Shown here: positions 22,924 through 36,981 of the stretch, in pieces | Layout: every line of letters begins with the position of its first letter | Numbering within the stretch: the first letter of the stretch is position 1 | NCBI GenBank assembly: GCA_017984435.1 | Contig: JAGNZK010000002.1 | Span: 1-64,000 of the forward strand | Direction: 5' to 3' | Length of the DNA: 64,000 bases | Source of the DNA: Nitrosomonas sp. | Lineage (GTDB): Bacteria; Pseudomonadota; Gammaproteobacteria; Burkholderiales; Nitrosomonadaceae | Notes under the pieces: model-generated | Database searches by the model: none | Told to the model about the DNA's origin: nothing | The model's input: only the letters and a program-made list of their open reading frames with translations | Program-made: the position numbers and the translations under genes

Positions 22924-23141
22924 TTTTTACTCGATTTAAGAGCAGAGATTGCTGCTGTATAAGCTGTACAAGTGAGTATGTGTCTCAATAATTCTATAAT
23001 AAATAAGATCGTAGAAACATTTTTCGGGATGAGTGGATTATCTGATTTAAATGCATTAAAGGATAAACCATATGCTTAAGGTTTGTTGACGTTTCGAGAT
23101 AAGTATTTAATAGATAGAAACAAACTCGTAATATTGGGGTT

Positions 23142-23419
23142 CCATGCTACCAACAAAACGAGTTTGCGCTGCCCCGCTGGATGCTCAGTGATGAGTTCTG
23201 GTGGATGCTGGGGAAGACTGCTTCAAGAAGCGATTTATAACAAACGCAGTCTGCGCATGACAGTAGAAGGTATGCTGTATCGAATGTGGATTGGTTGTCC
23301 GTGGCGGGATTTGCCAGAAGCGTTTGGTTGCTGGAATTTGATCTACAAAAGATTTAATGCATGGTCATTAAACAGCAAGTGGTTAAGGATTTTCAAGGCA
23401 TTATCTATTGATCCGGATC
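23142..23419 (+). pseudogene. IS5-family transposase remnant (N-terminal part)
   Basis: Decayed transposase start. One frame gives WMLSDEFWWMLG, the next LLQEAIYNKR, MTVEGMLYRMWIGCPWRDL and WLRIFKALSIDPD; these are consecutive blocks of the DUF4096-type N terminus of IS5-family transposases. A frameshift lies near 23205-23225. The similarity stops at about 23419 and the DDE catalytic region is missing. The left end of the element probably lies near 23075-23085, but no matching right inverted repeat was found. Confidence 0.8.
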
Positions 23420-23892
23420 GTGTTGTAATTCCTCGATGGATTGGTATATTGCGCCGGAATGCCACTTGATAGAACTCCTGCAGGATGGTTTTGTGGAAAC
23501 GCTCGCAGATACCGTTGGTCCGTGGATGATTGGCTTTCGTTCTGGAATGCTCAATGTCATTGAGCAAATCAGCCGCTGTGATGGACGTTTTAGTAGTATA
23601 CAACTTAGGCCCATTTGGAATAAGTATCGACGAAGGTTTGCTGATAAATTCGTTCCATGCACCTTGCGGATGCCGACATAGAAGGTATCTTGGCTGCCGA
23701 GATAGCCGGGATGAGCCGTCCCGATCTCACCATAGGCAACATCATTCTCCTGTTTCCACTGCCGTCTGATAGCGATAGAAAGTATCACGAGAAGAATTCA
23801 TCACCTTGCGGTGTGAGATACATTCCAAGCTCGGTTGACAGATTAAGCAAGCCAATCTTGTGTTTGATGGCATTCTGTTGAATACTACTCAT
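23410..23892 (-). pseudogene. IS481-family transposase remnant
   Basis: Reading leftward from an ATG at 23892: AIKHKIGLLNL, SRDTFYRYQTAVE, IGTAHPGYLGSQDTFYVG, YTTKTSITAADLLND directly joined to DIEHSRTKA, then TNGICERFHKTILQEFYQVAF and YQSIEELQHDPDQ. These are ordered blocks of an IS481-type integrase, but they fall in several frames and at least two internal segments are missing: between the helix-turn-helix and the catalytic core, and inside the core. The element is dead and fuses at GATCCGGATC (23410-23419) with the IS5 remnant. Confidence 0.82.
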
Positions 23893-26204: not shown

Positions 26205-26861
26205 CTAGGCATGTGCTTCATGAAAAGTATGCACGGCCTTTGGATCGAGATGGTTAATGGTGGCCATAATCTGTTGCGGATGGGACAACGTCGGCGCCAT
26301 GCTCCAGCGATTAAGCGCATCATTGCCAATACGTACCATGCCAGTGTGATTTTCTTTTACTCTGTCAAGAGCAATTTCGCGATCAAAGAAGCCGAGACGA
26401 AAGCGAACTAATTCAATATCTTCCGGTGCACCGGTCAGAAACTTCCAACCAGGTTTTATGCCATGACGATCAGCATATTGCCTGAGCCCCTTGGGAGAAT
26501 CCAGATCAGGCTGCAAGGTAATTGAATACATGAAGACATCGCGTCCAGCACGTTCGCCCAACATTTCTTGTACCTGTACCAAATTGGCTGTTGCTTTCGG
26601 ACAGATGCCAGCGCATTGGGCGTACATCATATTGATGGCGACAACTTTATCGCGAATCAAGTCATCGTAGAACTTGACGGCTTCCCCTTCATGCGTATAG
26701 AGCGTTACGTTCGGAAACGGTGTGGTGCTCAAATCCCTGTCGTCCCAACTGGCAGTAGTATCCGGTATCTTGTTGTCCAGTGCTTGCCACGCAGCATTCA
26801 GGCCAATCAAACCCAGTGCGGCTGCACCCATACCTGCTAATATTTCTCTACGCGTATTCAT
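26205..26861 (-). CDS. SCO1/SenC-family copper protein
   Basis: A 218-residue thioredoxin-fold protein with the SCO copper ligands: Cys83 and Cys87 in CAGICP and His172 in NHTGMVRIG. The N terminus has the twin-arginine pattern NTRREILAGMGAAALGLIG, so it is probably exported or anchored via Tat. SCO proteins carry copper or redox power to copper enzymes, classically the CuA site of cytochrome oxidase. Here the gene starts 38 bases downstream of a multicopper oxidase on the same strand, so I infer it helps metallate that enzyme. Confidence 0.9.
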   Translation of the reverse strand: MNTRREILAGMGAAALGLIGLNAAWQALDNKIPDTTASWDDRDLSTTPFPNVTLYTHEGEAVKFYDDLIRDKVVAINMMYAQCAGICPKATANLVQVQEMLGERAGRDVFMYSITLQPDLDSPKGLRQYADRHGIKPGWKFLTGAPEDIELVRFRLGFFDREIALDRVKENHTGMVRIGNDALNRWSMAPTLSHPQQIMATINHLDPKAVHTFHEAHA

Positions 26862-26899
26862 AGTAGTTTCCTCTTTGTTTATTCATGTTGGTCTTTCGC

Positions 26900-28759
26900 T
26901 CACTCCACAATGTCCCAGCGCACCATCATGGCGTGGTCTTCATGAATCATATTGTGGCAGTGCATCACATACTTTCCAGGGAAATCCCGAAAGCGCATAA
27001 ACAACCTAATAGCTTCATTTGGCCCCAGCACGTAGACATCCTTACGCCCTTTTTCGTGCGCGGGCACAGGCACTTCAATGCCATTTTTAAATCTCTTTAG
27101 GATATGACCTTCTTCGAAGTGGATATGAACGGGATGGCTCCAACCACCGGATGGATTGTCCAGTTCCCATATTTCCATGCCGCCTGCGGCTATGTGCGCG
27201 TCGGGGGAATTAACATTGACAAATTTATCATTGATGGACCACATGCCATTTTTGCGCGCAAATACCCAAGTCCTAACGGGAGCTGCCGCGATTTCAGCGG
27301 GAGTTGGTCTACGTATCGGGCGTAAAGTGCTCGGTACTCGGCTGACATCCGGTTCACTAGGTTCATGGTCGACAATAAACTTGAGCACGCGTATGCCAGG
27401 GGCTTTGACACCGTTTGGTCCACGTGTACTATTTTGTTCTAGCCGGTTAGCGAGATAAAGTACAGTTCCCTGAGCGTACTTGGAGAAATCCACAACGATA
27501 TCGCCGCGCTCAGCCACACCCAAGTGAACTTTGAATTGATTGAGCAGCGGCTTGGGCAAAAGATTACCGTCATTGGCGATATAGGTGAAACTTTGCACTT
27601 TATCTGCTTCATTAACTAAATGGAACTGATAAAAGCGACTTGGTCCCGCATTCAGCAGGCGGAAGCGATATTTACGGCGGGCGACTCTCAGTACAGGTTC
27701 AATCTTTTCATTTACCGTAATTTTATCGCCGAACGTGCCTTCTGGGCTAAGCTGATCGAATATTTGGATGCCATTCGCGTCGAAGCGCTTATCCTGGAAT
27801 GCCAACGGATAATCGTAGCGACCACTTGGTAACCTTAAAGCGGCCGGATTAGGATCATGCTCGTCGCCTGAATCGATGGCGTCGTAAATTAGATAAAAAC
27901 CTGCTAGGCCACGGCTTGCATTGGGTGCAGTAAAATCCAGACAATGGTCGTGATACCATAGCGTACCGAGTGCTTCACGTTTGTCACCGCCTACAGGATT
28001 ATTGGGACCTTTGGGAAATTCATCAAATCCGGCATAGACATTAGGATAAAACTGATCTTTGAACTTGCCTGGTCCGCTGAGTGTTGGTCCGGATTTTGTT
28101 TCACTGAAATAATCGCCAGGGAAACCGTCACTTTCTGAAGGTGTATGCAAGTTATGCAGATGCATGCTGATTTCCGGTGTGCCGAAGCCCACATGATCCT
28201 CAGGTAATTCGTTATATAAACGAACGATGACCGGACGTCCATATCGCGCGTGGAATGTAGGGTTGGGGTAAGGATGGCCATCTTCGAACTTACCGACATA
28301 GTTCCAAACAAGCTGTGGAGGATAATCCGGATGAAATACATGATCTGTAATCTCTTCAGCTCTTAATTCATACGTATCCGCCTGATCGTACTGAAGTTGC
28401 GGATTGCCGAAGAAATCCGCCCAGCGTTGGTGTTTATTGCGCCCACACTCATCATATGCAGTATTCGTTTCTCCTTGCGGTATCCGATAGGGATCCGTAA
28501 GAAGATCTGTTTGTGCCACCGGCTCAACCGCCTCGGGTAATTCTTCCAGCCAAGGTGTAGTTGGTGGACTAGGTGGCAACGATGAAGCGCCTTGTGCCTC
28601 GCTTTTGCGGGGAGTTAAGATTAACGGTGCTGCCAGAATTGTGGCCCCAGTTGTTTTAAAGAAAGCGCGCCTCGATTCATTATATGGTGAATCGGAAAGG
28701 CTATCTTGCGAGGAACCAGCTGTGCTATCTTGCGTAGAATCATCTTCTGTATGTTTCAT
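26900..28759 (-). CDS. Tat-exported multicopper oxidase
   Basis: A 619-residue three-domain multicopper oxidase. A twin-arginine signal (NESRRAFFKTTGATILAAP) is near residues 28-46 after an unusually long Ser/Asp-rich n-region. Copper-site motifs are MHLHNLHTPSESDG, WYHDHCLDF, HPVHIHFEEGH and the C-terminal HCHNMIHEDHAMM with its type-1 Cys, two His and Met. The architecture matches bilirubin oxidase/CotA/laccase-like enzymes that oxidise metals or phenols and reduce oxygen to water. A SCO gene follows, and a secreted-type heme peroxidase is divergent. Confidence 0.93.
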   Translation of the reverse strand: MKHTEDDSTQDSTAGSSQDSLSDSPYNESRRAFFKTTGATILAAPLILTPRKSEAQGASSLPPSPPTTPWLEELPEAVEPVAQTDLLTDPYRIPQGETNTAYDECGRNKHQRWADFFGNPQLQYDQADTYELRAEEITDHVFHPDYPPQLVWNYVGKFEDGHPYPNPTFHARYGRPVIVRLYNELPEDHVGFGTPEISMHLHNLHTPSESDGFPGDYFSETKSGPTLSGPGKFKDQFYPNVYAGFDEFPKGPNNPVGGDKREALGTLWYHDHCLDFTAPNASRGLAGFYLIYDAIDSGDEHDPNPAALRLPSGRYDYPLAFQDKRFDANGIQIFDQLSPEGTFGDKITVNEKIEPVLRVARRKYRFRLLNAGPSRFYQFHLVNEADKVQSFTYIANDGNLLPKPLLNQFKVHLGVAERGDIVVDFSKYAQGTVLYLANRLEQNSTRGPNGVKAPGIRVLKFIVDHEPSEPDVSRVPSTLRPIRRPTPAEIAAAPVRTWVFARKNGMWSINDKFVNVNSPDAHIAAGGMEIWELDNPSGGWSHPVHIHFEEGHILKRFKNGIEVPVPAHEKGRKDVYVLGPNEAIRLFMRFRDFPGKYVMHCHNMIHEDHAMMVRWDIVE

Positions 28760-28927
28760 GAAATCCTCCTTCTATAAATAATCTGACCGTCTATTTGTGC
28801 CAACATGATCCGATCGCTTGATTGTTATTCTTTCTTCCTACTGATTTTGCTGAATTCAATTAACCAATAATTGCAATTGATATGCTAGGGCTGTAAGTCT
28901 GCAAAGTAAATTAGCAAAATACTTGTT

Positions 28928-28948
28928 TTTATCTAAGCATTTGCTTAG
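28928..28948. promoter_or_regulatory. palindromic element, copy A (oxidase side)
   Basis: The left arm TTTATCTAAG and right core CTTAG surround CATTTG. In 21 positions it differs from copy B (29468-29488) at only two. It lies about 170 bases upstream of the multicopper oxidase start on its promoter side. I infer an operator; the regulator is unknown. Confidence 0.5.
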
Positions 28949-28956
28949 TGATGTAT

Positions 28957-28971
28957 TGATTCTAATTCTCA
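28957..28971. promoter_or_regulatory. candidate Fur box
   Basis: TGATTCT-A-ATTCTCA matches 11 of the 14 specified positions of the 7-1-7 Fur pattern TGATAAT-N-ATTATCA and continues into ATTAAT. It lies immediately beside palindromic copy A, about 200 bases upstream of the multicopper oxidase gene. This is a match by eye only. Confidence 0.35.
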
Positions 28972-29467
28972 TTAATATTGGTGCGTTGGCGCTGTGGAGA
29001 AAGTCGTAATTTATGTTGAAGGATGTGGTTTGTGTGATCAGAGAATGAGATTTTCTCTGGAAAGGCATTGATGAAGCTTTTCGACAGAACGAAGTGAACG
29101 GTAAAGTACTTTGTTTTATTAAGAAATCTCCGAATAGCTGTCATTTCGGAGTACAGATAAAGTATATATTGTTGATTTATTAATATTATTTTTTCGTATC
29201 CAGAATGACAAATGCAAGTAGTTAAGAGACTTCCTGATTACAAAACAGTGATTAGTTGTGCTGTGCTGTAAAGAGATTTGGAATTTTCTAAGTCAGGTGA
29301 TTTAGGGCGCCACTGTTTCGATGATTTTAATCTTGTTTCAAGTAATAAGTGTTTTGTTTAATTATCTTAGTAGATATATCAACTAATTGAATAATAGTAG
29401 TTTTTATGGAAATATTTTAGGCTGATTTTGTCATATAAGCTGAAAGCAATCCAGCTAATTTCTAAAA

Positions 29468-29493
29468 TTTATCTAAGTAATTGCTTAGATAAA
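29468..29493. promoter_or_regulatory. palindromic element, copy B (peroxidase side)
   Basis: A perfect 10-bp inverted repeat: TTTATCTAAG at 29468-29477 and CTTAGATAAA at 29484-29493 with a TAATTG spacer. It lies 234 bases before the heme peroxidase start. Copy A has the same left arm and core. The rest of the 967-base gap between the oxidase and peroxidase genes is A+T-rich and shows no supported gene. Confidence 0.55.
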
Positions 29494-29726
29494 AACAGGC
29501 ATTCTGCCAATTTATTTACCCAATGAATAACCTTAGTATGCGAAGTGGAGATAATGGAAATGAGTGTGGTTCTGAGTGGATTTTGAATAAACCAGCAGAA
29601 CCGGCAAGATAGGGAACTCGTCAGAAGTGTTACTAAACCTATTGATTGCAACGGTTAATGAATGAATTTAACCGATAAAAAACCTAAACACTCATCTTTA
29701 ATAATTAAAATTATGAGATAAATAAA

Positions 29727-32700
29727 ATGGCAAATTTCAGCAGAACTGATCTTAATTTTCTACTGGATCAAATTTTTATTGCAGAGAACGATTCTCTAGC
29801 GCAACAAAGTGGTGTTTTTGATGCACTGCCGTCGCTTATCAGCAGTCCATTGCTGCCGAACGGTTTGCGTAATGTCAACGGAACGTATAATAACTTGCAA
29901 CCGGGCCAATATCTGTTTGGATCGGCTGATCAAATCTTTCCACGTTTGCTGGATCCGGTTTTTCGTACGGGTGATGATGTTCCTGCGGGTTTTGGTACGC
30001 CGGGTCAGTTAGTTGGTAGCGGAACCAGTTATACTCAAACTAAGGGTTTGGTGTTCGATTCGCAGCCCCGCATAATCAGTAATTTGATTGTTGATCAAAC
30101 AGCTGGTAATCCGGCGGCCGTAGCGGCTGCAGACCAAACGGCAGGTTCAGAGTTGGTGGATGGAATTCGCTTCGATGGTACGCCTTTTCAGACCTATTTT
30201 ATTCCCAATGTTGCACCGGATGTGGGTTTTGCAGCACCATACAACTCTTGGTTCACGTTGTTTGGGCAGTTTTTCGATCATGGGCTAGATCTCGTCAATA
30301 AGGGTAAGAGTGGGACAGTATTTGTGCCTCTGCAACCTGACGATCCATTGTATAACTCGACTCCTGGCGCACCAAATTTTATGACGCTGACGCGGGCAAC
30401 CAACGAGCCTGGTGCAGATGGCATTGTTGGCGACGATCCCGCAACGCCATTGGTGGATGAGAGTTTTGATGATATCCACGAACAGCGCAATCAAACGACG
30501 CCTTTCGTCGATCAAAATCAAACGTACACATCACATCCTTCGCATCAGGTTTTCCTGCGCGAATATGAAATCAACGTGACATCTGGCAAACCAGTTGCAA
30601 CCGGTAAATTACTTGAGGGAAGCGCTACGGGTGACGGGCTTGCGACTTGGGCCGACATCAAAGCGCAAGCGCACAGTATGCTGGGGCTTAATCTTACCGA
30701 TATTGATTTGACTAACCTGCCATTGCTTGCGACCGATACCTATGGCAAGTTTATCCCAGGACCCAACGGCTATGCACAACTGGTATTGCCGGGTAATACG
30801 CTGCTCGAAGGCGACCCTGCTGCCAATGGCGGCTTAGGCGTCGATATTCCAGCCAATGTAGTGCGTACCGGGCATGCCTTTTTGGATGACATCGCCCATA
30901 CCGCGGTGCCGAAGTTCAGCAGCCCTGGCGTGCTGAATCCTGATGCCGATACCGACACTGGTAATACACCTGCTCCCGGTACTTACGACAACGAGTTGCT
31001 TGACAGACATTTTATTACCGGCGATGGTCGCGGCAATGAAAACATTGGTTTGACCACGGTACATACCGTATTTCATGCCGAGCATAATCGTAAAGTTGAG
31101 GAAGTCAAAGAGTTGGTCGAAAGTACTGGTGATGCAGCATTCCAAGCCCAATGGCATTTGCCGGATGGATCGTGGAACGGCGAACGCCTGTTTCAGGCGG
31201 CGCGTTTTGCCACCGAGATGCAATACCAGCACTTGGTATTTGAAGAGTTTGCGCGAAAAGTGCAACCGAATGTCGATATCTTTGTTGGCTATGACAGCAC
31301 GATTGATCCAACCATCATGGCTGAGTTTGCGCACGTGGTTTATCGTTTCGGTCACTCCATGTTGACTGAAACGGTGGCTAGAACTAATCCGGATGGTACA
31401 CCTAATGATATTGGTTTGATTCAAGCGTTTTTGAATCCGGTTGAGTTCGGTGCTGGCTACGCTAACAGTACTGAAGCTGCTGGCGCAGTTGTTAATGGCA
31501 TGACCAAACAAATCGGCAACGAACTAGACGAATTTGTTACCGAAGCTTTGCGCAACAATCTCGTTGGACTGCCGCTCGATTTGCCGACGATCAACATGAC
31601 TCGCGCTCGTGATACCGGTATTCCTGGGTTAAATGATGCACGCCGCATGTTCTATGAAGATACCGGACAAAACGCGACATTGCAGCCTTACGATAGTTGG
31701 GCCGATTTTGGGTTGAACATCAGACATCCTGAGTCGCTAACCAACTTTGTTGCAGCCTACGGTACGCATCCTGACATCCTCGCTGAAACAACAATGGCTG
31801 GTAAGCGCGCTGTAGCTGAATCTCTCGTCAATGGCACGCATGTTGACTCCAGCGATTTCATGAATAGCACCGGCGCTTGGGCAAATACAGGAATAGGAGG
31901 GACAACAAGTATTACGGGTCTGGATGCCGTTGATTTCTGGATTGGTGGTCTGGCCGAAAGCCAAGCACCGTTTGGTGGGCTATTAGGAACTACGTTCAAT
32001 TTCGTGTTCGAAACGCAGTTGGAGAATTTGCAAAATGGTGATCGCTTATATTACTTGGCACGGACAGCCGGCCTCGATTTCCTTACCCAACTGGAAGAAA
32101 ATTCATTTGCCGAATTGATTATGCGTAATCTACCGGATGTGAAACATTTACCTGCTGACGCTTTCTCGACGCCAAAATATATTTTTGAGATGAGCGCTCA
32201 GAATCCCAGCGGACCAATTATAGATGATACGAATACGACTTATGATGAAAGAACGCTGCTAAAACGTGATACCTCGCTGGGTGCAAATACAATTCGCTAT
32301 ACTGCCCCAGAAGAACATATCGTGATGGGTGGCACCGAAGGTGTAGACAGGATGCGTTCAGGTTCTGGTGATGACACATTGTGGGGTGACGGAGGGGATG
32401 ATCGCATGGATGGTGGAGCTGGCAATGACGCAATTAATGGCGGTGCCGGCAACGATATCATTAGTGATACCTTTGGCGATGATGTTATCAAGGGAGGCGA
32501 TGGACACGATGTGATTAACGCTGGTCCTGGTATCAATCTGATTCTTGGTGGTACAGGTAGCGACTTTATTATCACGGGTAACGATATTTCAACAGTTTTT
32601 GCCGGTCTGGGTAACGACTTTATCTTTGGTAATACGCCTAACGCAGCTATGACTGGCGGTGAAGGTGATGATTGGATTCAAACAGGTACCGCAGATGGTT

Positions 32701-34631
32701 CTCCGGGCGATAATTTCGATCCGTTCGGACGTGATCAAATTCGTGGCAATGATGTTTTCCTCGGCAATGGCGGTATCGATGGATTCATTGGTGAAGGTGG
32801 CGATGACATTATGAATGGTATGGCCGGCCCAGATAAGAACAATGGCGACAGCGGATTTGACTGGGTATTCACCAAGGGTAGCACGATCGCTGCCGATATC
32901 GACTTGACAAAAGGTATTTTTCCGGGTCCCTTTGTGGAAGTGGTCGATCGCTTTGCATTTGTCGAAGCGGCATCCGGATGGAATCTTAACGACATCGTGC
33001 GCGGTGACAACAACACGAGCGTCGAATTGGAATTGATTAATCCGCTTACAGGGCAGAACAATGCGCTGGATAATGTCAATAACCCCGCCGGTGGCGGACA
33101 CAGTGCTGTCGAGAGGATTGCGCTGATTGATGGATTGAGTGCTTTGTTGGGTAACGGCGTAACTTCGTTCAGTGCCGGTAACATTTTATTGGGCGGTGCC
33201 GGTAGTGACTTGATCGAAGGTCGTGGCGGCAACGATATCATTGATGGCGATGCTTGGCTCAACGTGAGGATTAGTGTCCGGGATAAAGTTAATCCTAATC
33301 TCGAAGTCGCAAGCTTCGACAACATGACTAGCGCGCTGAGGACAGCGATGCAGAATGGAACCTACAGTTCGGATCAACTCAAAATTATTCGTAAGATTGA
33401 GATTGCTCCGGCTGGGACCAATATCGATACGGCTGTATTCCAGGATGTTTTTGCCAATTACATATTGACTTTTAGTTCCGATGGCACAATATTTGTTAAT
33501 CACGCCAATCCTACTGCGGCCGCAATCGACGACGGTGCTGACACGATACGTCACGTCGAACGGCTGCAGTTTACGGATAGAACCGCTGTAATTGGTACAG
33601 CCGGTAATGATAACTTAGTAGGTACGACCGGCAGTGACGTACTTATCGGGTTGGCCGGTAACGATAGACTGGACGGTTTGGTCGGCGTGGATACGCTGAT
33701 TGGCGGCCTAGGCGATGATACCTTTGTGGTTGATATAACTACCGACACGATTACCGAAGCGGCTGGTGCAGGAAGCGGTAACGATACAGTGGAAAGCTCG
33801 GTGACATACACAATTGCTGCTGCTCCTAATCTTGAAAACATTACGCTGACAGACTTAAATGCAATCAATGCGACCGGTAATGCTGCAAATAACATTCTAA
33901 TTGGTAATAACAACAATAATGTGCTAACAGGTGCTGCCGGCAACGATACGCTTACGGGTAATGATGGCAATGATACATTGGCTGGTGGTGTCGGGAATGA
34001 CACCATGATCGGTGGCGCAGGTGATGATATCTATAATGTTGGTAGCGCTGGCGATGTGATTACTGAACTGGCAGGCGGTGGTACTGATACGGTGATAAGC
34101 ACGATAACCTATTCGTTAGTACCCAGCCTTAATCTTGAGAATCTTCAACTTGGGGGCGCAACTGCAATCAACGGAACCGGTAATGCCGCGAATAATGTAC
34201 TCACGGGTAACAGTGCCAATAATATACTTACTGGCAACGGTGGCAACGATACACTCTTTGGTGGCGGTGGCAACGACGACTTGATTGGTGGAGTCGGTGC
34301 CGATTCGCTGACAGGCGATGCCGGCGCGGATGACTTCATTTACACCGCGATCGGGCAGTCCACTGTGCTTGCTACGGGTAGAGATACTATTACTAGTTTC
34401 GTGAGTGGAACTGACAGGATCGATCTGAGTGCAATTGATGCCGATGCAGGTGTTGCCGGTAACCAGGCTTTCGACTTTATCGGTAATGCTGTCTTTTCTG
34501 CGGCGGGGCAAGTGCGCTACGAAGGTGGTGTTTTGCAAGCTAACGTAGGTGGGGCTAATGGCGATGCTGCTGACTTCCGGATTGATTTGACAGGTGCACC
34601 AGTATTTGTCGCAACGGATTTGGTTGCCTAA
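29727..34631 (+). CDS. animal-type heme peroxidase with RTX calcium-binding repeats
   Basis: A 1634-residue protein. Residues ~100-800 are a heme peroxidase of the peroxidase-cyclooxygenase superfamily: distal Gln181, Asp184 and His185 in FGQFFDHG, HAEHNRKVEE, RFATEMQYQHLVFEEF, and proximal His543 in YRFGHSML. RTX nonapeptides (GGxGxD) begin near residue 879 and recur near 1290, 1400 and 1490-1540, with a repeated linker module (NLExxxL...AINxTGNAANN). There is no N-terminal signal and the hydrophobic C terminus ends FVATDLVA, both typical of type I secretion substrates. This architecture matches MopA-type Mn(II)-oxidising peroxidases; Mn activity here is inference. No type I exporter lies in the window. 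Confidence 0.92.
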   Translation: MANFSRTDLNFLLDQIFIAENDSLAQQSGVFDALPSLISSPLLPNGLRNVNGTYNNLQPGQYLFGSADQIFPRLLDPVFRTGDDVPAGFGTPGQLVGSGTSYTQTKGLVFDSQPRIISNLIVDQTAGNPAAVAAADQTAGSELVDGIRFDGTPFQTYFIPNVAPDVGFAAPYNSWFTLFGQFFDHGLDLVNKGKSGTVFVPLQPDDPLYNSTPGAPNFMTLTRATNEPGADGIVGDDPATPLVDESFDDIHEQRNQTTPFVDQNQTYTSHPSHQVFLREYEINVTSGKPVATGKLLEGSATGDGLATWADIKAQAHSMLGLNLTDIDLTNLPLLATDTYGKFIPGPNGYAQLVLPGNTLLEGDPAANGGLGVDIPANVVRTGHAFLDDIAHTAVPKFSSPGVLNPDADTDTGNTPAPGTYDNELLDRHFITGDGRGNENIGLTTVHTVFHAEHNRKVEEVKELVESTGDAAFQAQWHLPDGSWNGERLFQAARFATEMQYQHLVFEEFARKVQPNVDIFVGYDSTIDPTIMAEFAHVVYRFGHSMLTETVARTNPDGTPNDIGLIQAFLNPVEFGAGYANSTEAAGAVVNGMTKQIGNELDEFVTEALRNNLVGLPLDLPTINMTRARDTGIPGLNDARRMFYEDTGQNATLQPYDSWADFGLNIRHPESLTNFVAAYGTHPDILAETTMAGKRAVAESLVNGTHVDSSDFMNSTGAWANTGIGGTTSITGLDAVDFWIGGLAESQAPFGGLLGTTFNFVFETQLENLQNGDRLYYLARTAGLDFLTQLEENSFAELIMRNLPDVKHLPADAFSTPKYIFEMSAQNPSGPIIDDTNTTYDERTLLKRDTSLGANTIRYTAPEEHIVMGGTEGVDRMRSGSGDDTLWGDGGDDRMDGGAGNDAINGGAGNDIISDTFGDDVIKGGDGHDVINAGPGINLILGGTGSDFIITGNDISTVFAGLGNDFIFGNTPNAAMTGGEGDDWIQTGTADGSPGDNFDPFGRDQIRGNDVFLGNGGIDGFIGEGGDDIMNGMAGPDKNNGDSGFDWVFTKGSTIAADIDLTKGIFPGPFVEVVDRFAFVEAASGWNLNDIVRGDNNTSVELELINPLTGQNNALDNVNNPAGGGHSAVERIALIDGLSALLGNGVTSFSAGNILLGGAGSDLIEGRGGNDIIDGDAWLNVRISVRDKVNPNLEVASFDNMTSALRTAMQNGTYSSDQLKIIRKIEIAPAGTNIDTAVFQDVFANYILTFSSDGTIFVNHANPTAAAIDDGADTIRHVERLQFTDRTAVIGTAGNDNLVGTTGSDVLIGLAGNDRLDGLVGVDTLIGGLGDDTFVVDITTDTITEAAGAGSGNDTVESSVTYTIAAAPNLENITLTDLNAINATGNAANNILIGNNNNNVLTGAAGNDTLTGNDGNDTLAGGVGNDTMIGGAGDDIYNVGSAGDVITELAGGGTDTVISTITYSLVPSLNLENLQLGGATAINGTGNAANNVLTGNSANNILTGNGGNDTLFGGGGNDDLIGGVGADSLTGDAGADDFIYTAIGQSTVLATGRDTITSFVSGTDRIDLSAIDADAGVAGNQAFDFIGNAVFSAAGQVRYEGGVLQANVGGANGDAADFRIDLTGAPVFVATDLVA

Positions 34632-34829: not shown

Positions 34830-35477
34830 TTATTCGCTAATAACATTGTGGTTGATAGCCAAGCGAATAAGTTGCGTTGTATTCTGCAACTTTAGTTTTC
34901 GCATCAAGTTGAGGTAATGAACGCTGACAGTTTTGGGGCTGATAGAAATTTTTTCTGCAATTTCTATATTGGAGCTTCCCTCTACGATCAGTTTCAGTAT
35001 TTGAAACTCCCGTTTGGTGAGTAAATCAAAAGGATTTTCATAATTATCTTTACGTGTCGCATAAATTGCTAGTGCAGTAGCCAGCTCTGATTCAATATAA
35101 GTTTTTCCTGAACTGACCTGCCGTACCGCATGAATCATTTCTCCTATTCCACTTTGTTTGCTGATAAATCCGATTGCTCCCGCTTTTAATGCACGATGCA
35201 CCATAGTGACATTGTTGAGCATACTAAAAACCAGAATACGTACGGTAGGATCGTGGCCTATGATGCGGTGGATTGTTTCAAATCCACAGATACCTGGCAT
35301 ATTAAGATCCAAAATGATGACATCAGGTCGATGTTCTTGCCATAGTCGGTAGCCTATTTCGCCATTCTCAGCTTCGGCGACTACCTGCATACCCGGTGTA
35401 TTCTCTAGCAAACGTCGATAACCGTTGCGCACTACAGGGTGATCATCGATCAGCAGGATGGTAATTGGTTTAGTCAT
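34830..35477 (-). CDS. NarL/FixJ-family response regulator
   Basis: A 215-residue regulator with receiver domain (acidic pair 11-12, phospho-acceptor Asp57 in IILDLNMPG) and a C-terminal LuxR-type helix-turn-helix (LTKREFQILKLIVEG, IAEKISISPKTVSVHY). It begins 3 bases after the stop of its kinase partner. It converges with the heme peroxidase gene and is a candidate regulator of the oxidase/peroxidase locus, on position only. Confidence 0.93.
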   Translation of the reverse strand: MTKPITILLIDDHPVVRNGYRRLLENTPGMQVVAEAENGEIGYRLWQEHRPDVIILDLNMPGICGFETIHRIIGHDPTVRILVFSMLNNVTMVHRALKAGAIGFISKQSGIGEMIHAVRQVSSGKTYIESELATALAIYATRKDNYENPFDLLTKREFQILKLIVEGSSNIEIAEKISISPKTVSVHYLNLMRKLKLQNTTQLIRLAINHNVISE

Positions 35478-35480
35478 TAT

Positions 35481-36620
35481 TTAAGCTTTCATCGGTAATC
35501 GAATGTTAATTTCTGTACCTTCATTGAGTGCGCTACGTACGGTCATTCTGCCATCCATTGCGATTACTCGTTCTCGCATACCTACTAAACCTAATCCCAT
35601 AGATTGTTGATTGGTATCATAGCCTTTGCCATTATCTTCTATTTTAAGCAATAAGAAGTCAGTCGTAGAATTTTCAGCCATTTCACGGCTTAAACTAACC
35701 TGAGCCCAAGAAGCTTTGGAGTGCTTGTAGATATTGGTGAGACCTTCCTGAATAAGGCGAAATATCGTAATGTTAAATTGCTCGTTCAACTTTGTCAGTT
35801 TACCTTCCAGCTTCAATTCCAGAGTGATTTGTGGGTGATATGAACACCACTGTTTCCTCAGTTCGAGTAATGCATCGGGCAATCCCAGTGTATCCAGAAG
35901 TAAAGGGCGCAATCGATGGAGCATGTTCCGGATTACTTGATGCATTTTTTCGGTACATGCTTTAATAGCTTGAACACTGGTTAGGATGGTTGAGTTTTTT
36001 TCAATACAATTGAGAATAACTTCGTTTTCTGCGCGAATAGCGGTAAGCCATTGTCCTAATTCATCATGTAATTCACGAGCAAGTATGCGTCGTTCTTTTT
36101 CCTGAATACGGAATAATTCTTTCATAAGCTGTCTGTTTTCATGCAATAAATCACGATTGAGGTTACTCATTCTTTTTAGCTGACTGATGTCTGACATCAT
36201 CATGCGGCACATGTTCTTATCACTTGCTACCGTACTTTCCAGGCGGATGAAGCTGAGCGGATCATTGTCATCCCCGATTTTTAAATCAATCGTGGTTTTA
36301 CTGGAAGAATCGAAAACGCCTCGTAGATAGTTGAGAAAAGCTTGATGATCGATATCCAGGAAGCAACTGGTAAATGACTTGCCAATGAGAAAAGGGCGAG
36401 CTCTTCTCAGTAATGCTGCTCCGGTCAGATTAATCGATAGAATGTTCCCAATACTGTCGACGGTTAAGTAGCCGACTGGCGCATGATCGTAGAGATCGGC
36501 GTAACGATTGCGAGACTCTTCCAATTCCAACTGTTGTGTTTGAAGCTGATCAGTGAGCAATTCCATTTTATTATGTGCTTCAGCGTCATCCAGTCTTCTA
36601 TGCTTATTACGTTGATTCAT
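35481..36620 (-). CDS. cytoplasmic PAS-domain sensor histidine kinase
   Basis: A 379-residue NarX/DegS-type kinase without transmembrane segments. After an N-terminal coiled-coil (about 8-40) comes a PAS domain (about 40-150; YADLYDHAPVGYLTVD), a HisKA_3 segment with His185 (ARELHDELGQW) and an HATPase domain (IEDNGKGYD, GMRERV). The frame is open further upstream, but the ATG at 36620 follows AGGAG with good spacing. It forms an operon with the regulator at 34830-35477. The lack of membrane helices points to an internal signal. Confidence 0.9.
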   Translation of the reverse strand: MNQRNKHRRLDDAEAHNKMELLTDQLQTQQLELEESRNRYADLYDHAPVGYLTVDSIGNILSINLTGAALLRRARPFLIGKSFTSCFLDIDHQAFLNYLRGVFDSSSKTTIDLKIGDDNDPLSFIRLESTVASDKNMCRMMMSDISQLKRMSNLNRDLLHENRQLMKELFRIQEKERRILARELHDELGQWLTAIRAENEVILNCIEKNSTILTSVQAIKACTEKMHQVIRNMLHRLRPLLLDTLGLPDALLELRKQWCSYHPQITLELKLEGKLTKLNEQFNITIFRLIQEGLTNIYKHSKASWAQVSLSREMAENSTTDFLLLKIEDNGKGYDTNQQSMGLGLVGMRERVIAMDGRMTVRSALNEGTEINIRLPMKA

Positions 36621-36678
36621 ATTGTCTCCTATTCTCTGGTAGCAGTAACGGACAGTATTATTCATATACTTAATGTAC

Positions 36679-36981
36679 CTATGGAGTTGTACCTGCAAGA
36701 ACAGGATCACATGTCTTGAATTGAGGTGTTGTAGTGGGAACGAGGATCATGCCAGCGGGCATGAGCGGTATTTTGAATCGTTGAATAAATGTGTTTAACT
36801 CGTCCGCACAAGTATTGATACTTATGATTGGCGGTACATTTACTTCCGTGTTTTGATCGATATCTGCTTTATCCTGATAAATCCTTGTTTGGAACAGTTT
36901 AGATTTATTTTTCAATTTGAAAGCTCTAAAGAATGTTTTTCCATAGAAATTATATACTATGGTCTCAAGTGTTGGGTGCAC
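36679..36981 (-). CDS. doubtful small hypothetical protein
   Basis: An open frame of 100 codons with a GTG start, no clear Shine-Dalgarno sequence and no recognised domain. It lies between the start of the PAS kinase gene and comEC and overlaps neither, which is the only reason it is listed. The stretch 36621-37090 otherwise holds the divergent promoter region of the kinase operon and comEC. Confidence 0.25.
   Translation of the reverse strand: MHPTLETIVYNFYGKTFFRAFKLKNKSKLFQTRIYQDKADIDQNTEVNVPPIISINTCADELNTFIQRFKIPLMPAGMILVPTTTPQFKTCDPVLAGTTP

Follow-up and report, generated by a model that had tools for sequence, protein, structure and literature searches.

We analysed a 64,000-nucleotide stretch of DNA (the window) from Nitrosomonas sp. 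(assembly GCA_017984435.1, contig JAGNZK010000002.1, positions 1 to 64,000), in which a multicopper oxidase (MCO) gene and an RTX animal-haem peroxidase gene diverge from a 967-bp intergenic region (28760-29726). The palindrome CTAAGTANNTACTTAG lies upstream of both genes, and genomes of the genus that carry one gene mostly carry the other. Very probably, the two enzymes form a functional unit, a pair of extracytoplasmic oxidases under two-component control. An earlier note on this DNA had described a locus of an MCO, an SCO1/SenC copper chaperone (SCO) and an RTX peroxidase, and for all three we found open reading frames (ORFs) with agreeing Pfam domains (Table 1). The divergent arrangement with SCO and two-component genes alongside was likewise borne out by ORF positions and Pfam, the genes for a response regulator (RR) and a sensor kinase (HK) sitting at 34830-36710 on the minus strand, just past the end of the noted locus at 34631. 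Beyond that locus, co-occurrence and the shared promoter element show that the MCO and the peroxidase are more than chance neighbours. The organism remains a likely ammonia oxidiser on the basis of genus-mates only (Nitrosomonas sp. metagenome-assembled genome (MAG) NEU_AOB_4 at L195; AmoC, PF04896, 2.8e-131, in another). Below, G, L and C numbers are our handles for genomes, loci and contigs.

A palindrome and two oxidase genes that travel together

Two of the three CTAAGN6CTTAG palindromes in the genome fall in the intergenic region between the MCO and peroxidase genes (P about 5e-7 for a pair within 967 bp, taking the rate from those same three sites). Each is followed by a similar AGATAAAAACARG... 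stretch, and the MCO-side copy with its flank (about 28898-28960) matches the element preceding the peroxidase. We surveyed promoters of the genus at 39 loci, 38 of which gave an upstream region, accepting up to two mismatches and excluding promoters where the alignment started after reference residue 25 or less than 150 bp lay upstream (e.g. the first L068 peroxidase). Of 35 peroxidase genes, 22 had the element upstream, as did 19 of 30 MCO genes, frequencies matched by shuffles in at most 0.2%; none of the 19 SCO, 10 RR and 2 HK genes had it. The element also stands at the lone peroxidase genes L066, L074 and L219. In L065, L068 and L217, a single palindrome sits between two divergent genes and was counted for each, so that the 41 positives are 38 distinct sites. 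Nine further MCO promoters, 7 of them from regulator-less genomes and with L269 and L271 removed by the same exclusion rule, had the element at one, giving 20 of 39 MCO promoters in total. Genome-wide enrichment of CTAAGN6CTTAG was tried and discarded: it was present in 30 of 61 genus genomes, and the reversed control was as common or commoner in most. The palindrome signal resides in the peroxidase and MCO promoters.

Co-occurrence was scored in 86 genomes of the genus, with the peroxidase domain accepted at E<=1e-20 and a close MCO at 68% identity or more; each was present in 26 genomes. Both were carried by 24 genomes, the peroxidase alone by 2 (G007, G113), the MCO alone by 2 (G033, G085) and neither by 58 (Fisher 8e-17). 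The earlier note had named a lack of co-occurrence in relatives, taken together with a peroxidase clustering away from Mn-oxidising members, as what would speak against it; for co-occurrence, the counts clearly show the reverse. At the level of the order, 399 genomes were scored (the rows listed include 11 from the window's genus); with cut-offs of E<=1e-60 for the peroxidase and at least 53% identity for the MCO, the same 8 genomes carried both (Fisher 6.7e-17). Two of the 8, G153 and G347, belong to other families than the window's, and in G153 the MCOs and the peroxidase are on different contigs; G006, G050, G225 and G400 had only MCOs of 42-49%. Neither Fisher test takes account of shared ancestry. 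As a separate observation, G113, the peroxidase of which is divergent, has four tandem MCO genes (C92:23609-35180; 803-888-aa frames) with 43-44% identity to the window MCO.

By contig coordinates, 19 of the 26 carriers in the genus have an MCO within 10 kb of the peroxidase gene (for G008, measured from its RTX end); peroxidase genes with no MCO in the examined stretch include L066, L071, L072, L074, L215, L216 and L219. Outside the genus, the window layout with HK and RR recurs in Limimaricola (L107, L124), where the HK and RR lie beyond SCO-MCO and a type I secretion system (T1SS) is added. MCO and/or SCO adjoin the peroxidase in Fuscovulum (L119) and Rhodobacter amnigenus (L180), and SCO only in a Rhodobacteraceae MAG (L185), at the stretch edge. 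The peroxidase is accompanied in Variovorax (L181) by an MCO of 53% and an SCO of 48% identity, in a Methylococcaceae MAG (L194) by an MCO of 56%, again at the stretch edge, and in G347 (L259) by SCO and MCO in the order SCO-MCO-peroxidase, together with T1SS/HlyD and a third, unassigned gene. Since the Rhodobacterales MCOs (32-35% identical to that of the window) are of another subfamily, the peroxidase has acquired MCO-SCO partners of two kinds. Among the 97 named or plasmid loci listed, an MCO stood beside the peroxidase in 7 (two from one species, one Nitrosomonas) and was not seen in the other 90, within stretches of up to about 10-12 kb each side. A T1SS lay near the peroxidase in 66 of these relatives, and HK+RR beside it, by a distance rule, in 50 (Nitrosomonas MAG L195 included). 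On a 63-row peroxidase tree, with 55 rows scored and 13 of these linked, MCO linkage requires 7 changes, in a count made without L260, L185, the unlinked genus paralogs and the linked row N_L076 (lost to an over-wide name filter). In G025 (L081:1-4568), the SCO end of an MCO-SCO pair is about 1.2 kb away from an AmoC gene.

The proteins and their relatives

The earlier note had ascribed a MopA-like architecture to the 1634-aa protein, and the An_peroxidase and HemolysinCabind matches agree with it: a single peroxidase domain (about residues 1-830) is followed by RTX repeats. By eye, no N-terminal signal was seen, and export is presumably by type I secretion; a T1SS is encoded elsewhere in the genome (C11:20841, 37% identical, with HlyD and outer-membrane-efflux neighbours). 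Mapped to lactoperoxidase residues, the active-site residues are all present (Q181, D184, H185, R435, E438, H543). The catalytic Arg had been thought missing, here and then across the family, as REHNR reads HAEHNR in the window protein, which was ruled out: that residue is supplied by the invariant R within GDGRxNE, and the active site is therefore complete. The haem-pocket motifs GQFFDHGLDL, TPFVDQNQT, GDGRGNENI and RFGHSM are identical in the window peroxidase and the protein of the MopA organism SD-21, and the peroxidase domain shares 45.7% identity with SD-21 MopA, 49.1% with the Aurantimonas protein and 57-58% with those of P. resinovorans. Three of five lactoperoxidase Ca ligands are described as kept in MopA in the available part of PMC6247904, and the window peroxidase also keeps three by motif, as assigned by eye. 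An AlphaFold2 model of the domain from 20 rows reached a mean pLDDT of 51 and a pTM of 0.27 and was not used.

Peroxidase domains were compared in a quick tree of 117 rows and the careful tree of 63 rows, both excluding partial peroxidases (<60% of the model) and built without P. putida GB-1 MopA and the Roseobacter AzwK-3b and Leptothrix peroxidases, none of which was among the 80 loci kept from the genome contig scan. The Nitrosomonas domains form one clade (support 98 in the quick tree, 100/100 in the careful tree), and the SD-21 and Aurantimonas proteins stand together in a separate one (100; 100/99). Forcing the 10 genus rows together with the 9-row MopA clade cost 106 log units and was rejected (approximately unbiased (AU) test, p 0.008 (0.0082)), while forcing the genus together with the P. 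resinovorans d1/GM48 domains, a Pseudomonas Mop-like group, was not (AU p 0.197). Clustering away from Mn-oxidising members, the other half of the joint result that the earlier note had named as telling against it, was thus seen as regards the two characterised alphaproteobacterial MopAs, whereas union with the Pseudomonas group stayed unrejected. The root of the tree is unsure because the sole outgroup row (L122) is very long. The P. resinovorans d1/GM48 proteins have two peroxidase domains, as do Mop7013/7014 of P. resinovorans MOB-513, implicated in Mn oxidation in the text seen of PMC9765421, and we infer that L174 is an orthologue of the latter. By sequence, the window protein is a MopA family member in a clade of its own. 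It resembles the Mn-oxidising long peroxicins, MopA of Erythrobacter sp. SD-21 and Aurantimonas manganoxydans SI85-9A1, in its animal-haem-peroxidase domain, RTX repeats and pocket motifs, and is shorter, their ORFs having 2138 aa (the MopA length given in PMC6247904, as far as available) and 3331 aa. Strict PERCAL motifs number 2 and 3 in those proteins and none in the window peroxidase, several genus paralogs having one. Unlike in the window, no MCO-SCO was seen in the examined stretches of the SD-21 and Aurantimonas loci.

In the MCO, the T1, T2 and T3 copper-ligand motifs are all present (H200xH202, H270xH272, H542xxHxH547, H600CH602), with H606 and M611 assigned by eye from the same stretch as the last. 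A Tat-like (twin-arginine translocation) signal, ESRRAFFK, was recognised by eye, and the enzyme is predicted to be periplasmic and the peroxidase extracellular. The protein scored below the NCBIfam equivalog cut-offs of CueO (113/525 bits), PhsA (139.4/950) and FtsP (84/581), the o-aminophenol oxidase PhsA being the best partial match. It shares complete copper-ligand motifs with CotA and bilirubin oxidase, its best solved matches, and differs from them in the Tat-like signal, in the SCO gene that follows it and in forming a group of its own (51-89% identical among the loci examined) that is tied to the peroxidase. The SCO carries CAGIC (CxxxC) at residues 83-87 by motif reading and a twin-arginine-like N-terminus, TRREILAG, by eye; 18 SCO genes of genus-mates, 65-85% identical, adjoin MCO genes.

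A candidate regulator for the palindrome

The best NCBIfam model of the RR was UvrY/SirA/GacA, at 177.9 bits against a cut-off of 280, such that the equivalog level was not reached. The site bound by UvrY/GacA-type regulators, TGTAAGNNNNNNCTTACA, lies far upstream of promoters, with TGTAAGN6CTTACA as a UvrY site (PMC4682653, in the part available). This 18-bp site and the window palindrome are both N6-spaced inverted repeats with TAAGN6CTTA in common, whereas their outer bases differ (GTAAG versus CTAAG). The RR also departs from GacA/UvrY in its sub-equivalog score and in its partner, a HisKA_3 kinase of which the nearest NCBIfam type is UhpB-like and which is not a BarA-type hybrid. In the 26 peroxidase genomes, the operator and a regulator of at least 67% identity were both present in 14, the operator only in 1, the regulator only in 3 and neither in 8 (Fisher 0.0008; 0.0017 on leaving out G086, where the contig ends before the peroxidase promoter and the two MCO promoters are without the element); G113, with a regulator 60% identical, was scored as regulator-absent. 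The RR may therefore be the protein that binds the palindrome, as we infer from this association and the form of the site.

Several results weigh against such control. G040 has operators without a close regulator, and G016, G025 and G090 have the regulator without an operator within 2 mismatches. The regulator is beside or a few kb from the peroxidase gene in just 10 of 17 regulator-positive carriers and on another contig in 7, and it is present also in genomes without the peroxidase. The element is missing from 13 of the 35 peroxidase promoters (L007, L008, L069, L070, L076, L208, L209 (two), L210, L211, L220, L222, L223) and from 19 of the 39 MCO promoters (11 in the first set), and all loci seen with peroxidase-MCO-SCO in one direction lack it. 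In named and plasmid loci, TAAGN6CTTA preceded only 3 of the 98 peroxidase genes, one being Nitrosomonas L195; the element is therefore not general in the peroxidase family.

Other occurrences were recorded separately. The palindrome precedes further MCO-SCO pairs (L224, L225, L231), an RTX/immunoglobulin (Ig)-domain protein by lysS in L228 and L230 (recognised by N-termini) and a 455-aa protein (455-457 aa) without a Pfam match in G040 (L229), and lies near an RTX/Ig-domain protein in L079:166-5139 (G000:C35); sites in L232-L237 had no evident link to the system. A dyad, TCAGA-N6-TCTGA, which shares the N6 spacing and could be a regulator site in some relatives, was weakly represented in 5 of the 98 peroxidase upstream regions (at most 3 in shuffles).

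Substrates and competing explanations

We propose that the kinase would signal to the GacA/UvrY-like regulator, which would switch on two promoters via the CTAAGTANNTACTTAG operator. One would yield a Tat-exported three-domain MCO, loaded with copper by SCO, and the other a MopA-family haem peroxidase that would leave the cell through a type I system whose genes lie elsewhere in the genome. Outside the cell, the peroxidase would most likely carry out the one-electron oxidation of Mn(II) to Mn(III), and the MCO would pass electrons from Mn(II)/Mn(III) to O2. As a whole, this co-regulated Mn-oxidising unit falls just short of an even case. Mn(II) oxidation by the locus is plausible; Mn as the main substrate of the unit is a possibility that we hold with some reserve. 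We prefer Mn on three grounds: Mn(II) is oxidised by the nearest peroxidases whose activity has been tested; in P. resinovorans, Mn(II) elicits a response of the mop genes (PMC9765421, in part); and, in the portion available of PMC5906577, MCO-only mutants of P. putida oxidised Mn(III) in the dark and a MopA-only mutant did not, with little Mn(II) oxidised, the authors noting a light effect. These phenotypes fit a division of labour between MCO and peroxidase. The Mn substrate named in the earlier note is accordingly favoured by MopA family membership and the same pocket motifs, and disfavoured by the position outside the MopA clade.

That position is one of several points on the other side. 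The identity to the two alphaproteobacterial MopAs is only 46-49%, and neither MCO/SCO nor adjacent HK+RR were seen in the stretches examined at their loci. The closest solved structures to the MCO by sequence are bilirubin oxidase and CotA. As of 2012, the catalytic properties of these bacterial peroxidases were described as not predictable from sequence in the available text of PMC3396595, which took the P. putida GB-1 homologue as inactive on Mn; PMC5906577 and PMC9765421, as far as available, describe otherwise. We found no Mn assay in the literature for carriers of the locus. Nramp/MntH adjoins the peroxidase at only two Bosea loci of the 97 listed (L106, L188), as an Nramp-type divalent metal transporter beside kinase/regulator and peroxidase, and is not a general link to Mn.

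With bilirubin oxidase and CotA as the nearest solved MCOs and PhsA as the best partial match, the co-regulated pair could instead act on organic substrates, oxidising or cross-linking phenolics, humics or matrix polymers in biofilm or aggregate formation. The palindromes near the large RTX/Ig-domain protein and the 455-457-aa protein would suit a surface or biofilm regulon, and biofilm formation is under BarA-UvrY family control according to the part seen of PMC4682653. However, family members with a named, tested physiological substrate oxidise Mn in the sources as available, and the pocket motifs equal theirs; we regard organic substrates as rather unlikely. A defence unit, with the MCO as a CueO-like copper-detoxifying oxidase and the peroxidase as a scavenger of reactive oxygen or a PepA-like surface protein, draws on the partial CueO match and on PepA being discussed for reactive-oxygen detoxification and root-surface binding (PMC3396595, in part). 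Considering that the CueO score is far below its equivalog cut-off and that the recurrent neighbours of the listed relatives are T1SS (66/97) and kinase/regulator genes (50/97), copper-efflux genes not having been searched for, defence is decidedly unlikely.

Among the relatives of the peroxidase are many rhizobial RTX proteins with T1SS, and the RzcA rhizobiocin is presumably a member of this peroxidase family. An extracellular antagonism factor of the rhizobiocin type, cited in the seen part of an RTX review, leaves the MCO-SCO partner unexplained and sits poorly with intact catalytic residues, and is very improbable. Chance neighbours co-inherited without joint function would suit the peroxidase genes without an MCO in the examined stretch (e.g. 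L066, L071, L072); this reading is already disfavoured by co-occurrence, by repeated linkage in distant groups and by an operator shared even with unlinked peroxidase genes (L066, L074, L219), and we find it scarcely credible.

MCOs and a MopA-type peroxidase coexist in P. putida GB-1 and P. resinovorans (MnxG, McoA, MopA), a likeness of gene content, the sequences of MnxG, McoA and P. putida MopA lying outside the comparison. In PMC9765421, as available, mnxG/mcoA are under a two-component pathway, and the MCO and mop locus numbers of P. resinovorans MOB-513 are far apart (Table 1 there), whereas the window genes are adjacent with a common palindrome. The part seen of PMC3396595 lists a Nitrosomonas sp. 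AL212 protein among the peroxidases of this superfamily, and an animal-type peroxidase in Nitrosomonas is therefore already in print; we found no report of a linked, co-regulated MCO-SCO-peroxidase unit in literature coverage that leaves out most subscription journals. There are two classes of bacterial Mn oxidase, MCOs and haem peroxidases, and the reason for having several of them in a single organism is called an open question (PMC5906577, in part). A conserved pair with one common promoter element makes the joint action of two enzymes testable, and in ammonia oxidisers it would, if true, tie nitrification to Mn cycling. More tentatively than for Mn as main substrate, we suggest that Nitrosomonas might have a pair of enzymes, a secreted MopA-family peroxidase and an SCO-matured MCO, dedicated under two-component control to oxidising Mn(II) stepwise through Mn(III) to Mn(IV), in a unit assembled repeatedly in alpha-, beta- and gammaproteobacteria and linking nitrification to Mn cycling. 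Even with a non-Mn substrate, the operator/regulator prediction offers a direct, cheap test.

Table 1. Genes and palindromes of the oxidase locus, in window positions
Feature	Position	Strand	Evidence or remark
SCO1/SenC copper chaperone, 218 aa	26205..26861	-	Pfam SCO1-SenC 1.5e-14
MCO, CotA / bilirubin-oxidase type, 619 aa	26900..28759	-	Cu-oxidase_2 3.5e-15, Cu-oxidase_3 3.3e-8
Palindrome CTAAGCATTTGCTTAG	28933..28948	n/a	189 bp upstream of MCO start
Palindrome CTAAGTAATTGCTTAG, inside TTATCTAAGTAATTGCTTAGATAA	29473..29488	n/a	254 bp upstream of peroxidase start
RTX animal-haem peroxidase, MopA / long-peroxicin family, 1634 aa	29727..34631	+	An_peroxidase 1.2e-61, HemolysinCabind 1.5e-43
LuxR/NarL-type RR, 215 aa	34830..35477	-	Pfam Response_reg+GerE
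HisKA_3 HK, 409 aa from GTG	35481..36710	-	Pfam HisKA_3+HATPase_c

From comparison with genus-mates, the true start of the kinase is probably the ATG near 36620 (MNQRN...). An IS4/5-family (insertion sequence) transposase remnant (DUF4096) lies upstream of the locus at 23083-23469. The genome encodes a second An_peroxidase protein, of 504 aa, on contig C68 (G000:C68, L080:7007-8521, minus strand), of which An_peroxidase is the only Pfam match and which adjoins a Dak1/Dak2 dihydroxyacetone-kinase-like gene.

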